This document shows positions 59,213 through 63,888 of a stretch of 64,000 nucleotides of DNA, piece by piece; the stretch's first letter is position 1, and each line of letters starts with the position of its first letter. The notes beneath the pieces are model-generated. The model was not told the DNA's origin. It searched no databases and saw nothing but the letters and a program-made list of their open reading frames with translations. This stretch comes from Corynebacterium marinum DSM 44953. Its GTDB lineage: Bacteria; Actinomycetota; Actinomycetes; Mycobacteriales; Mycobacteriaceae. The stretch covers positions 1,736,001 to 1,800,000 of the forward strand of contig NZ_CP007790.1 in assembly GCF_000835165.1 (NCBI RefSeq). The letters run 5' to 3'. The position numbers and the translations under genes are program-made.

Positions 59213-59746
59213 CTACATCTGCCCCCGCTTGGTGTAGCCCATCCGCGGGCGGAAACCGGCCGGGTGCTTCATCTGGGCCACCGCGTCGGAGATGACCATG
59301 CGGAAACGCGGGCCGATCGGCGGCAGCTTCGAGATCTCGAACCAGCCGACGTCCATGGACTCCTCGTCGCCGACCGCCGGGGTGTCGTCGCCGACGACGC
59401 TCAGGCGCATGGCGGTGTCCATGTAGCGGGTGACGTCGCCGTTACCGTAGGTGACGGGCCCGGTGGCGCCGACGCCGAGGAGGGCCTCGACGCGGGCGTC
59501 GAGAAGCGTCTCCTCCTTGACCTCCCGCACGGCGGTGACGTGCGGCTCCTCGCCGGGGTCGCTGATGCCGCACACGGGGGTCCACTCGCCGTTGTCGGCG
59601 CGCTTGACCAGCAGCACCTCCGGGACAGCCCAGATCGGGGCGCCCGGCGGGACGTCGCGGACGACCACGGCGGTGACGGCGGGCAGCCAAAGTTCCTGGT
59701 TTCCCACCTTCTCGCGTAGGCGGAGGATGAAATCGGGAGTGGGCAC
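59213..59746 (-). CDS. NUDIX hydrolase
   Basis: A 177-residue Nudix protein. The box reads GISDPGEEPHVTAVREVKEET, giving the essential REVKEE helix, but the usual Gly after EE is Thr. It hydrolyses a nucleoside diphosphate linked to some moiety; the substrate is unknown. A leading LRLREKVGNQELWLPAVTAVVV strand pair and a C-terminal MDVGWFEISKLPP complete the fold. The GTG start (PTPDFILRL) has AAGGAACC upstream, 19 bp after the large exonuclease gene stop, so they are probably co-transcribed. Confidence 0.88.
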   Translation of the reverse strand: MPTPDFILRLREKVGNQELWLPAVTAVVVRDVPPGAPIWAVPEVLLVKRADNGEWTPVCGISDPGEEPHVTAVREVKEETLLDARVEALLGVGATGPVTYGNGDVTRYMDTAMRLSVVGDDTPAVGDEESMDVGWFEISKLPPIGPRFRMVISDAVAQMKHPAGFRPRMGYTKRGQM

Positions 59747-59765: not shown

Positions 59766-62700
59766 CTACAGCTCAGCAATGAGATCGGCGATAGCGTCCT
59801 GGCGGCGGTACCGGAAGCGCGACACCAGCCGGCGCCGGGGAGCGGCGGGATCGAGCCCGACGGCCTGGCTGGTGCGGCCCAGCGCCCCGGGGTCGGCCGG
59901 GTTGACCCAGGTGTCCAGCCCGGTGGCGTTGAGGACCTCCGCGATACCGCCCAGCCCCTCCCGGCGCGGGGTGGCGTGCTGGACGTCGAACCCTCCCCCG
60001 CCGGTGAAGGTGAGCCAGATGCGTTCGCCCTGGCCGATGCCGGCGGCTTCGAGGAAGCGACGGATGGTGCTGACGGTCGCGCCGGTGCGCGACATGGCCA
60101 CGGTCTGCTCGCCGAGCGGGCTGGGCAGCGTGCGCTTGTCCAGCATGGGCACCTCCAGCGCCACGGCCACTCCCCGGGGGACGCCGGAGCCGGAGCCGCG
60201 GAGGTGGTCGGAGGTGACGGTGGTGAGCCACACCAGGTCCCCGCCGATGCGGTAGAGGCCGGGGGTCTCCTGGGGGTCTGCCTCGACCTCCTGGATCTCC
60301 TCCGCCCGGCTGACCTGGCCCTCGACGGTCTGGAACTCGGCAGAGGAGGCGTAGGCTCGCACGGAAGACTCCGCCACTCCGAGGGTGCCCACGGCCTCGT
60401 CCAGCAGGCGGTCGAGAGGGACCGGGCCGGCCTCGACGCGCCTGCCGATCCAGTCGGCCAGGTTGGAGTACTCCTCCAGCCCCCAGCCGCTCAACGCCCA
60501 GCGGTCGCGTCCGGTGCGGGTGATCCGCCCGTCGGCGGACATCGCGTTGGTCAGCGTCCGCGGGTTGATCTCGCCGAGCCGCCGCGCGATGTCCAGGCTG
60601 CTCAGCGGCTCGCCCTCGATGGCCAGCAGGGCGGCGGCGCGGTCCTGCGTGGAGCGGTCGCGGGTGAGGATGTGGTCGCCGTACAGGGTCTTGTCCTCCG
60701 CCAGGCGGTCCTTGAGCACCTGCGTGTCGACGCCCAGGTTGTCCGCCAGCGCCGGCAGGGACACCACGCCGAAGTCGTCGGCGAAATCGGCCAGCGCGGC
60801 GTCGAGGTCGTCGGCGAATCCGGCGCGCTGGAACCAGTCGCCGGAGATCTCCCACTCGTCGGCCAGCCACGCCAGGGTGTCCAGCACGGGGTTGCCCGGG
60901 ACGGGGCCCTCGTCCATGAGCGCGGGCAGCTCACTGCGCAGGTCGGCCAGCGGGGCGAGCACACCGAAACGCCGGCCCAGCGCGTCGAGCACGAGGTGGA
61001 TCGAGTCGGCGGGTTCCACCAGGCGGCGCTTGAGCCCGGTCTCCAACTGGCGGATACGTTCCCGGGTGACCTGGTGGCGGGAGCCGATCTCCTCGAGGGT
61101 CCGCTTCCCCAGGATCCGGCCGGTGAAGATGTCGAGGTCGCGGGCGTCGTACCCGATGCGTTCCGCCACCTCGGCGCGGGCGCGGTGGATTGCCGCGGTG
61201 GCAGGGTCGGACCAGTAGGTGTCCCCGGCCAGGGCGTCCAGTGCGTGAGCGACGGCCGGCGGGGCGGAATCCTGCGGGATGACCGGCAGGTGCCCGAGCA
61301 GGGCCAGCCACTCGACGACGGTTGCCACGCCGGTCTGCGGGGCCGGGCCCGGCTGGCCGTCGAGGTAGATGTCCTCGGACTCCACCGACAGGTAGTCCTG
61401 GACGTCCGGGGCGTCGAGCGCGGAGTGCACCACCGCGACGAGTGTCCGGTGGACGCGCAGGCGCCCGAAACCGGGGACGTCCGCGAGCTGGGTGACCGAG
61501 GCGTCGAGCGGCCGCGGGTAGAGGTTGAGCCAGCGCGCGACCACCGCGCCTGTGCGCGGCAGCGAGTCCGGCACCTCCGCCGGGTCGAGCAGCGGGGAGA
61601 GCTCGCGCAGGGGGACGTGCCGGTGGCGCTGCAGCCAGGCGCGGGCGATGTCGTCCGGGCCGGACGGTTCCGCCCCGAGGTTCTCCAGCCACGGGAAGAC
61701 GCCGGTGTAGCGCGCCGGGGCGGGTTGCGGCGTGTCAGGGGTGCCCGGGGCTTCCGGGGCTCCCGGTGTCCCGTCGAGGGGAATCAGGTCGCGCAGCATG
61801 CGGGCGAAGGTCGTCTCGTCGACGATGGGGATGCCGTGATCACGGGCCTTGCGGGCCTTCCCGCTCATCGAGTCGGGGTTGGCCGCCACCAGCAGGGTGG
61901 TCGAACGGGTGACGGCGCCGGCCTCCAGCCCGGCGGCGCGTGCCCGCAGCTCCCAGGTGTCGCGTCCGAGGGCCAGGGCACCGGTGAAGGCCACGCGGCC
62001 GCCGGGGCGCAGGCCGGCGTCCTCCGCCTCGCCGTGGACGGGCTCGGCCAGCAGCGCGTCGACCGATTCGGGGTCGACGCCCAACTGGACGGCGATGTCG
62101 TGCAGCTGGGTGCGCTCCGCGACGGTGACCACACCGTCGGTCCAGGCCTCCACCGCGAGCTGCCGCAGGTAGTCCAGGTGGATGTCGGCGGCCTCCTCCC
62201 GGCTGAGCCCGGCCTGCTCCGCGGCGGCCACGAGCTGCCCGATCTCGGAGCGGGACAGGGAGGCGTCGAGCAGCGCGCCGCGCAGGAGCCGACGGTAGCC
62301 GTCGACCTCGGCGACACCGGTGGCGGGCACGTTGGCGGACAGTCGCTCGAGCCAGTGGTCGGACTCCGTCTCTTCCCGGCCGCAGAGCGCCTGACGGGGA
62401 AGGTCGACCGGAGACAGCCACCGCAGCGGCCCCGCCGCGCCCTGGGTGGCGCCGTGGCGGGTCGACAATGCCCGGTAGAGGTCCGCGGCGGCGGCCGCGT
62501 CGGCGAGGGCGGCGTGCGGGCGGTCGTTGCCCAGCCCGGCCGTGTCCAGGCAGTCGGCCAGCCGCTGCGGGGCGCCGGGCAGCAGCCTCCGGGACAGGAC
62601 CCGCGTGCACTGGAACCACCCCGTGCCCGCGGGCAGTTCCACCCCCAGGCGGGCGTACTCGGCGGCGAGGAAGCGGATGTCGAAGGGAGCGTTGTGGGCG

Positions 62701-62963
62701 ACGATCACGCGGCCGTCGAGAAGCTCCGCAAGCTCCGCGGCCACACCCGCGAACGTCGGCGCGTGCACCAGATCGGTGGCGGTGACGCCGTGGATGTGGG
62801 AGTTGTCGATGTCCCGCTCGGGCTGCACCAGCGTCTGCCAGGTAGCCTCCTGCCGGAGCTCGCGGTCGAGGAGGACCACGCCGATCTCGAGGATCCGGTC
62901 GGACGGCCCCAACCCGGTGGTCTCCAGGTCGAGGACGGCGACGGCGTGCGGCACAGAGGGCAT
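59766..62963 (-). CDS. Exonuclease-TerB-BRCT-sigma region 4-HTH fusion protein
   Basis: A 1065-residue cytoplasmic protein. An N-terminal DnaQ-type 3'-5' exonuclease (1-175) has DLETTGL, a central HNAPFDIRFL and a C-terminal HAALADAAAAADLY, so the DEDDh set looks complete. Next come a TerB-like helical domain (about 220-310), a BRCT domain (about 318-389, GGRVAFTGALALG), a Pro/Ala linker, a mixed region, a helix-turn-helix (about 620-647) matching sigma-70 region 4 (TLEEIGSRHQVTRERIRQLE), and a C-terminal part containing a HARE-like winged helix ending ITRTGRDRWALSGW. A role in DNA repair or proofreading linked to transcription is inference. The ATG has GGGAGAT upstream. Confidence 0.85.
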   Translation of the reverse strand: MPSVPHAVAVLDLETTGLGPSDRILEIGVVLLDRELRQEATWQTLVQPERDIDNSHIHGVTATDLVHAPTFAGVAAELAELLDGRVIVAHNAPFDIRFLAAEYARLGVELPAGTGWFQCTRVLSRRLLPGAPQRLADCLDTAGLGNDRPHAALADAAAAADLYRALSTRHGATQGAAGPLRWLSPVDLPRQALCGREETESDHWLERLSANVPATGVAEVDGYRRLLRGALLDASLSRSEIGQLVAAAEQAGLSREEAADIHLDYLRQLAVEAWTDGVVTVAERTQLHDIAVQLGVDPESVDALLAEPVHGEAEDAGLRPGGRVAFTGALALGRDTWELRARAAGLEAGAVTRSTTLLVAANPDSMSGKARKARDHGIPIVDETTFARMLRDLIPLDGTPGAPEAPGTPDTPQPAPARYTGVFPWLENLGAEPSGPDDIARAWLQRHRHVPLRELSPLLDPAEVPDSLPRTGAVVARWLNLYPRPLDASVTQLADVPGFGRLRVHRTLVAVVHSALDAPDVQDYLSVESEDIYLDGQPGPAPQTGVATVVEWLALLGHLPVIPQDSAPPAVAHALDALAGDTYWSDPATAAIHRARAEVAERIGYDARDLDIFTGRILGKRTLEEIGSRHQVTRERIRQLETGLKRRLVEPADSIHLVLDALGRRFGVLAPLADLRSELPALMDEGPVPGNPVLDTLAWLADEWEISGDWFQRAGFADDLDAALADFADDFGVVSLPALADNLGVDTQVLKDRLAEDKTLYGDHILTRDRSTQDRAAALLAIEGEPLSSLDIARRLGEINPRTLTNAMSADGRITRTGRDRWALSGWGLEEYSNLADWIGRRVEAGPVPLDRLLDEAVGTLGVAESSVRAYASSAEFQTVEGQVSRAEEIQEVEADPQETPGLYRIGGDLVWLTTVTSDHLRGSGSGVPRGVAVALEVPMLDKRTLPSPLGEQTVAMSRTGATVSTIRRFLEAAGIGQGERIWLTFTGGGGFDVQHATPRREGLGGIAEVLNATGLDTWVNPADPGALGRTSQAVGLDPAAPRRRLVSRFRYRRQDAIADLIAEL

Positions 62964-63009: not shown

Positions 63010-63888
63010 TTAACCGGTGACCCCGACACGGGGTTCGAACCGGGCCCCCGGAACGACCCGGTCGAGCACGGTCTGGATCGCGGGCATGGAGGTGTAGGAC
63101 ATCGTCATCGGCCCGGCCCCCGGTTCGGTGCAGGCCAGCTCGCCGCCCGCGTCACGGGTGCCGGAGACGAGCCCGACGATGACGCGGCGGCCGTCGAAAT
63201 CGGCGTACACCGGGCCGCCGGAATCGCCCGCCCGCGCGCACACCCGGGCGGTGGCGGCCACGGCGCGCAGCTCCACCCCGTCGTGGTCGGCGAGGATCTC
63301 CACGCCGGTCGAGTTGATCGGCTCGCCGCAGGTCTCGCCCGTGGTCACCCCGAACTTGCAGATGACCTCCGGCAGCTCCCCGACGCTCTCCGCGACGACG
63401 GTATCCGCCAGCGGGTCGGGCGAGGCCATCACGTACCGGGGGTTGGTGATCTCGATGACGCCGACGTCCAGGCGGCTGGACGCGGCGTCGTAGAGGTCGG
63501 AGTAGATGAACGTCCCCACCGGGGCGCTGAAGTCGGCGTTGACGCCGTCGACGGTCGCCCAGACGTGGTCGCCGGGCATCCCGCAGTGGGAGGCCGTCAC
63601 CGCGTAACCGCGGTCGTCGGCGGTGAAGCTGTAGGCCACGGTGCACTGTCCGACCTGGATGGTCTCCCCGGGAACGGGCACGGTTTTCGTGATGGTCACC
63701 CCCGTGCCAGGCGCCCACGGGCTGGCTGCCGGGGCGCGCAGCTGCGTCGGCGTCTGCCGGGGCGCGGCGGCGGCCACCTCCGCTGCGGGGGTGGGGTTGC
63801 GCTCCTGTTCCTCCACGGACCAGGAGATGAGCGAGCCCACGCCCACGGCGGTCACCGCGGCCAGGCCCGCCCAGAGGCGGGTGTTCAC
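63010..63888 (-). CDS. Secreted trypsin-like serine protease
   Basis: A 292-residue exported chymotrypsin-fold protease. A signal or anchor segment (about 7-25) and an Ala/Pro/Thr spacer precede the catalytic domain (about 75-292). The triad is visible: His in VTASHCG, Asp in SRLDVGVIE and Ser in AGDSGGPVY. Cysteines near His and elsewhere could form disulfides. Its target is unknown. The GTG start overlaps the stop of the upstream partial gene as GTGA, and the fusion nuclease gene begins 46 bp after its stop. Confidence 0.9.
   Translation of the reverse strand: MNTRLWAGLAAVTAVGVGSLISWSVEEQERNPTPAAEVAAAAPRQTPTQLRAPAASPWAPGTGVTITKTVPVPGETIQVGQCTVAYSFTADDRGYAVTASHCGMPGDHVWATVDGVNADFSAPVGTFIYSDLYDAASSRLDVGVIEITNPRYVMASPDPLADTVVAESVGELPEVICKFGVTTGETCGEPINSTGVEILADHDGVELRAVAATARVCARAGDSGGPVYADFDGRRVIVGLVSGTRDAGGELACTEPGAGPMTMSYTSMPAIQTVLDRVVPGARFEPRVGVTG

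Follow-up and report, generated by a model that had tools for sequence, protein, structure and literature searches.

A Corynebacterium marinum protein joining a PDC-S48-type exonuclease half to a transcription-type DNA reader: a candidate guided defence nuclease

What might a single protein do that carries a 3′–5′ exonuclease at one end and a row of transcription-type DNA-binding modules at the other? This question is raised by a gene of Corynebacterium marinum DSM 44953, located at 59766..62963 on the minus strand of a 64,000-nucleotide stretch of contig NZ_CP007790.1 (positions 1,736,001 to 1,800,000). We refer to the whole stretch as the window; coordinates without a locus name are its own. 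An original prediction, made from the letters alone, had described a fusion of a DnaQ exonuclease, a TerB-like domain, a BRCT domain, a sigma region 4 helix-turn-helix and a HARE-like winged helix, and had proposed either a proofreading or repair nuclease recruited to promoters or a defence-type effector. Our analysis points, with belief and doubt about evenly balanced, to a self-contained DNA-surveillance nuclease, that is, a guided defence protein with a promoter-like reader. Its role would likely be the restriction of phage or plasmid DNA.

Gene integrity and the exonuclease half

Read from its N-terminus, the protein comprises a DEDDh exonuclease, a TerB-like domain, a BRCT domain, a helix-hairpin-helix (HhH) region, a sigma-70 region 4, four winged helices and a B3-like domain. 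The gene and its segments are located as follows.

59766..62963, minus strand: exonuclease/DNA-reader fusion gene, stop-free open frame of 1065 amino acids
62439..62963, minus strand: DEDDh (DnaQ-type) 3′–5′ exonuclease domain, residues 1–175
62019..62354, minus strand: helical TerB-like domain, residues 204–315 (all-helix in the model; sub-cut-off TerB and DUF533 matches in relatives)
61782..62012, minus strand: BRCT domain, residues 318–394 (sub-cut-off in Pfam; DNA ligase A chain match; strong in relative L143)
61404..61676, minus strand: HhH region, like or derived from the C-terminal domain of the RNA polymerase (RNAP) alpha subunit (alpha-CTD), residues 430–520 (profile-profile comparison)
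60999..61196, minus strand: sigma-70 region 4 helix-turn-helix, residues 590–655 (Pfam; RpoD alignment; invariant residues)
60294..60968, minus strand: four tandem winged helices, residues 666–890 (model m2ab6233c18e5, pLDDT 92; Foldseek)
60477..60659, minus strand: winged helix 3, HARE/RNAP-delta-like, residues 769–829
59964..60272, minus strand: predicted B3-like DNA-binding domain with DHLRGSG motif, residues 898–1000 (Foldseek; conserved residues)
59769..59951, minus strand: C-terminal helices, residues 1005–1065 (model)

A protein search, confined to proteins of similar length and thus apt to miss stand-alone halves, returned 31 closest matches with E < 1e-160. Twenty-nine of them aligned over 99–100% of the query and the remaining two over 89% and 48%; the nearest homologue with a named organism was that of Corynebacterium comes (84% identity). 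The ratio of nonsynonymous to synonymous change (pN/pS) against relative L114 was 0.29 overall and 0.19–0.34 by segment, while three further relatives gave 0.41–0.47 overall and at most 0.57 in any segment, so that every segment is under purifying selection (pN/pS < 0.6 across all four comparisons). The gene is real and is under selection as a single unit. Since it is conserved at full length, in the same order, in related corynebacteria and is held by purifying selection in each segment, an assembly error joining separate genes, which the original prediction had named as its own possible undoing, was ruled out, and its claim of one intact protein was borne out. In L085:7073-10419 (genome G062), a stop codon divides the fused gene into two frames.

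The exonuclease assignment proved equally sound. Pfam RNase_T matched residues 10–163 above its cut-off (E 1.8e-24), and the RNase_T/DnaQ fold together with the D, E, D, H and D motifs places the protein in the DEDDh class. In 23 aligned homologues, D12, E14 and H150 were present in 23/23 and D155 in 22/23, and D95 was replaced by E in six. The TerB label was weaker: residues 204–305 are all-helical in the structure model, but Pfam TerB gave no match in the window protein, and TerB and DUF533 matched its relatives below cut-off. Pfam BRCT matched residues 330–384 below cut-off (E 0.0028; 18.3 bits against 21.3), and a PDB sequence search aligned residues 322–392 with a DNA ligase A chain (E 0.0015). 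Because L143, a stand-alone relative of the N-terminal half (406 amino acids, Arthrobacter plasmid), reaches 38 bits for BRCT (E 2e-9), we accepted this assignment for the window protein as well; the TerB match of L143 stayed below cut-off (E 0.0014). A whole-model structure search covered residues 1–183.

A match of almost full profile length came from PADLOC, whose PDC-S48 profile aligned over positions 6–408 of 411 with residues 8–393 (E 4.5e-126). The N-terminal half thus corresponds to the stand-alone candidate defence family PDC-S48 (exonuclease-TerB-BRCT), where PDC stands for phage defence candidate according to the accessible text of PMC11514479. The profile holds no counterpart for the HhH, sigma region 4, winged-helix and B3-like half. 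Stand-alone genes in other genera contained the exonuclease, TerB and BRCT segments in 5/5 loci checked (L118–L122), and one stand-alone gene of this type is carried by a conjugative Arthrobacter plasmid. The actinobacterial DEDDh exonuclease family PRK06063 (NCBIfam NF004719) shares the exonuclease and a second matching stretch (E 1.8e-51), but the window protein, at 175 bits, fell short of the cut-off (389 bits) and is not a member, and the 331-position profile lacks the reader half. Neither the name PDC-S48 nor a description of this exonuclease/reader architecture was found in the literature searched (titles and abstract openings, with subscription literature mostly outside the scope).

The DNA-reading half and its partners

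The C-terminal half resembles an assembly of parts from the transcription machinery. Its best-supported element is sigma-70 region 4, called correctly from the letters alone: Pfam Sigma70_r4 matched residues 607–642 above cut-off (E 4.7e-6), and the stretch TLEEIG..VTRERIRQLE aligned with RpoD chains. The residues of the −35-reading motif (R634, E635, R636 and Q639) were invariant in the 23 aligned homologues, a set chosen partly by the motif patterns RGS and ER[IVL][RG]Q and omitting L067, which has neither pattern. The proposed recruitment to promoters is therefore a sound idea, as far as this motif can indicate it. Although the protein shares the TRERIRQ motif with sigma-70 factors, sigma regions 2 and 3 gave no Pfam match in it at E up to 1; with region 4 alone present, identity as a sigma factor was ruled out.

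Several elements had been missed by the earlier domain list, namely the HhH/alpha-CTD-like region (about residues 430–520), three further winged helices and the C-terminal B3-like domain. The HhH region matched the alpha-CTD region of reader relatives in profile-profile comparison (probability 66.9, E 5.3e-5), and the relatives' profile in turn matched RNAP alpha at 1e-5. The matches of the profile built from Corynebacterium sequences were all to HhH proteins of a general kind (E 0.08 at best), and alpha-CTD PF03118 matched in the relatives, with no match reported for the window protein. For the winged-helix stretch, Foldseek retrieved the winged-helix arrays of UFL1 and SelB. Winged helix 3 resembled the RNAP delta subunit in structure comparison, where Z-alpha domains scored higher. 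The HARE label of the original prediction draws on this likeness and on HARE-HTH (PF05066) profile matches in relatives; like the TerB label, it has sub-cut-off or model-based support.

The B3-like domain was predicted from structure. Foldseek matched it to the plant B3 chain 1yel (probability 1.00, E 6.6e-3), to VAL1, TEM1 and ARF chains, and to the restriction enzyme LlaJI.R1 (6c5d; probability 0.99, E 0.017). Many B3 chains fell at E of about 0.005–0.065, some ARF chains at probabilities of 0.44–0.89, and a sequence-profile comparison with B3 chains gave no match. H920 and R922–G925 of the motif occurred in 23/23 aligned homologues, the invariance of RGS being partly built in by the selection of sequences. 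A search of a viral structure library returned mostly winged-helix and unnamed proteins, three of them with E ≤ 0.001, and a count of promoter patterns in the protein's own genome was uninformative (10 matches against 12 for the reversed control). The same genome also holds a short stand-alone frame of 171 amino acids matching the winged-helix and B3-like stretch (L060/L028, C1:1938201-1938692), and similar short forms occur in other Corynebacterium genomes.

Outside Corynebacterium, the reader forms a family of its own. Members such as P0049, L063 and L144 show an alpha-CTD, sigma region 4 and then the winged helices with the DHLRGSG/B3-like end, and on Microbacterium chocolatum plasmids the family bears the name 'sigma factor-like helix-turn-helix DNA-binding protein'. 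The readers examined lack exonuclease, TerB and BRCT; instead, many have a nuclease or helicase gene beside them. At the level of sequence, the putative effector and reader are shown to be two families that are separate in other actinobacteria and fused in Corynebacterium.

We mapped 18 reader loci outside the genus (L061–L073, L076, L144–L146 and L148). A helicase or nuclease gene lay directly beside the reader in 11 of the 18, a count that includes related loci (four share a UvrD operon and four are Pbe-type) and for which the neighbours of L069 fell outside the scan. UvrD genes adjoined the reader in L061, L062, L076, L148 and L144, the last with a PD-(D/E)XK domain, and GmrSD did so in L065. 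In L146, an annotated thermonuclease gene lies directly upstream of the reader, and L072 and L073 have a related gene at a distance of one to two genes. The scanned neighbours of L066, L067 and L071 showed neither a nuclease nor a helicase domain. PbeA/PbeC-type genes adjoined the reader in L063 and L068 (on the opposite strand in L068), and in L064 and L145 they were recognised by their likeness to the L063 genes; none was seen in the neighbourhood of the window gene. The reader runs into pbeA by 4 bp in L063, L064 and L145, and a REase-ARP nuclease gene (L070:6898-8052; Pfam, E 5.5e-41) of a family found in 2/197 class-sample genomes overlaps its reader gene by 4 bp; these overlaps are a sign of coupling. 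As side observations, L061, L062, L076 and L148 share a Streptosporangiaceae-like operon in which the UvrD helicase is flanked by two reader-type proteins. The 1297-residue reader of L063 (L063:7087-10980), which precedes PbeA/PbeC, starts with a repeat array weakly like the His-Me endonuclease zinc-binding loop (E 3.3e-4, sub-cut-off), and the N-terminus of P0050 seems similar to this array. Frames of 724–797 amino acids in L074 and L075 match only the reader's B3-like end.

Two published systems invite comparison. PbeABCD corresponds to the CxC-ATPase-DndE systems as far as the accessible text of PMC10853773 and PMC6459918 goes, and the former names no sigma or alpha-CTD component for them in that text. 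PglW of type-2 BREX is described in the accessible part of PMC12839542 as an enzymatic N-terminus followed by an alpha-CTD-like helical domain and then winged helices. This order of parts recalls that of the window protein; PglW is, in that account, a kinase whose C-terminus bears an inactive ATPase, and a DEDDh exonuclease, sigma region 4 or B3-like part is not mentioned there.

Genomic setting and distribution

In the window, the gene is flanked by two others on the same strand.

59213..59746, minus strand: Nudix hydrolase, downstream of the exonuclease gene (GTG start at 59746)
63010..63888, minus strand: secreted serine protease, upstream of the exonuclease gene (Rv1815-like, weak match)

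In agreement with the operon proposed earlier, the protease gene is followed on the same strand by the exonuclease gene and then the Nudix gene, but this order is kept only among close relatives. Because the Nudix and protease genes of G417 are adjacent, with the exonuclease gene outside the pair, no functional tie to them is indicated. At other Corynebacterium loci the surroundings differ: large type IIG/I restriction enzymes lie near L082, L087 and L107 (those of L087 and L107 being 73% and 81% identical to that of L082), a type IIG gene near L112, a type III restriction gene near L099 and a DrmD-like helicase gene near L111. A crude PADLOC neighbour test (E ≤ 1e-40) found restriction genes among 129 proteins from 20 loci with fused, N-only or C-only family genes. 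Control loci 200–500 kb away in the same genomes (131 proteins, 17 loci) also gave matches, to type III restriction-modification, Cas3, Jet and type IV families. Of 142 test proteins, 13 did not enter the count: L094 and L104 lost three proteins each, and L081, L083, L087, L103, L108, L109 and L112 lost a single one. The protein missing from L087 is the restriction homologue, which would add one match; the L082 restriction gene entered as a piece. From the control set, 27 of 158 proteins were dropped (all of L140–L142, three of L128 and one of L123). The families listed were 25 of 41 and 25 of 31 for the two sets, with members unnamed, and matches were tied to loci only for 10 singly scanned test proteins and for L082 and L083. 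Some matches were plainly non-defence, such as a DNA polymerase I-like protein in the test set, and we take the DndA/SspA matches of the control loci to be cysteine-desulfurase-type and plainly non-defence too.

The winged-helix/B3-like end has a patchy spread. It was found in 83/242 Corynebacterium genomes (E ≤ 1e-5), including genomes with only short stand-alone forms, and at E ≤ 1e-8 in 52/394 class-sample genomes (two of them Corynebacterium) and 6/296 phylum-sample genomes. Replication proofreading, one part of the original guess, is unlikely for a gene so accessory in its genus, and a replicative proofreading subunit was ruled out on this ground; repair is kept as a rival below. In the gene maps made (L059–L116), the exonuclease fusion was confined to Corynebacterium. 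A possible exception outside the genus is a 570-residue exonuclease on a Georgenia plasmid (L147:5572-7284) with weak C-terminal HTH_23 and Sigma70_r4_2 matches, both below cut-off. The C-terminal half had no tblastn match in 50,697 phage records (E ≤ 1e-5), and a phage-borne family was ruled out on this result. Plasmid-borne relatives exist for both halves, and no plasmid record covered 80% of the query, so the whole fusion was not found on plasmids.

In a set of 24 fused proteins, selected because their exonuclease and RGS motifs could be recognised, distances of the N- and C-terminal halves correlated with r 0.88 (0/999 permutations as high), which fits one old fusion as far as sequence distances can tell. 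Five Corynebacterium genes (L091 and L097–L100) keep the exonuclease, TerB, BRCT and HhH region and lack the sigma, winged-helix and B3 parts. Four of them end in two hydrophobic, predicted membrane helices (L091:8181-10271, L097:5748-7742, L099:6429-8378 and L100:5534-7549); L098 has no in-frame hydrophobic helices and looks frameshifted. Multiple family copies per genome, some in tandem and most with changed DEDDh motifs, occur at L102, L103, L104 and L105 (G510 and G412).

Competing explanations and a proposed mechanism

Of the two roles first suggested, the defence-type effector is the better guess, because the N-terminal half matches PDC-S48 and because the C-terminal half often lies beside nuclease and helicase genes of conflict systems outside Corynebacterium. 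From this match and these partners we infer a defence role. The conserved catalytic and sigma-motif residues, the patchy distribution, the joint divergence of the two halves, the variants with membrane helices and the precedent of PglW also speak for a guided nuclease. Several points weigh against it. PDC-S48 is itself only a candidate defence family, and the TerB, HARE, alpha-CTD, BRCT and B3 labels are sub-cut-off or model-based. The partner count had no control and several of its loci are related; the test and control neighbour sets were not clearly different, and we claim no enrichment. Correlated divergence of the halves may merely track the species tree. The window gene lies between core genes that we take, from reading their sequences, to be thrC, glnA and glnE, and its place has been retained vertically in the clade. 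Moreover, several G412 and G510 paralogues carry changed exonuclease motifs (DLKTTG, DFKTTG, LELSILG and similar), and one G510 copy retains DFETTG while its later motifs appear altered; since these motifs are catalytic, nuclease activity is not always needed.

A housekeeping or stress-related repair nuclease, which we regard as somewhat unlikely, would use BRCT and HhH to sense nicks or stalled forks and the exonuclease to trim 3′ ends, while the sigma/winged-helix array would bring it to RNAP or promoters in transcription-replication conflict. The BRCT match to DNA ligase A, the weak HhH profile matches to DisA, Hef and DNA ligase (E 0.08–0.39), the fixation of the gene among core genes in its clade and the purifying selection on all segments agree with such a role; a housekeeping gene, however, would hardly leave 159/242 Corynebacterium genomes without a match to the reader's end, vary in genomic position elsewhere in the genus, have plasmid-borne relatives of both halves and be linked, through its reader, to restriction-type genes. 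We consider it rather improbable that the sigma-4/winged-helix/B3 array acts as an autoregulator, binding its own promoter to restrain a toxic nuclease instead of aiming it. All reader domains are transcription-type, and the reader precedes pbeA/pbeC in L063, L064 and L145, a place typical of regulators. Yet in one chain with the nuclease, repression would bring the nuclease onto its own promoter, a multi-site reader of about 600 residues is larger than autoregulation requires, and fused forms persist across the genus. Very unlikely, in our estimate, is a partly structural N-terminal half, that is, a catalytically optional scaffold whose exonuclease serves as decoy, sensor or RNA/dinucleotide hydrolase: the altered G412/G510 paralogues and the replacement of D95 would suit it, whereas D12, E14, H150 and, with one exception, D155 are kept throughout the alignment, the window protein included.

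For a guided defence nuclease, the following course can be envisaged. The reader would grip duplex DNA at more than one point. Sigma region 4 would recognise a −35-like hexamer, and the HARE-like winged helix, together with the B3-like domain, would probe sequence or base modification. Ends, nicks or partner molecules might be sensed by the BRCT and HhH parts, and the exonuclease, tethered to the reader, would degrade the bound DNA from its 3′ ends. Elsewhere among actinobacteria, PbeA/PbeC, UvrD, GmrSD or a restriction endonuclease would act in trans with the reader; the window protein would have its nuclease in cis. By analogy with known conflict systems, the effector and the reader have the look of modules that can be exchanged. 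A more specific version, which we consider unlikely, holds that the reader mimics the recognition parts of the holoenzyme (alpha-CTD-like region, sigma region 4 and delta-like winged helix) and delivers the exonuclease, or elsewhere a helicase or nuclease in trans, to promoter-bearing foreign DNA.

The fusion links a candidate defence nuclease of the PDC-S48 type to a reader family that elsewhere accompanies genes for Pbe, GmrSD, UvrD and restriction endonucleases, and the function of this one protein could inform the whole reader family; the natural exchange of the reader for membrane helices offers a ready internal control. If sigma region 4 does aim the nuclease, host-type promoter recognition would serve to find invading DNA, unlike the recognition modes of the systems compared here. 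Promoters would then be a hallmark that is hard for incoming phage and plasmid genomes to shed, and many nuclease partners would share a single reader.

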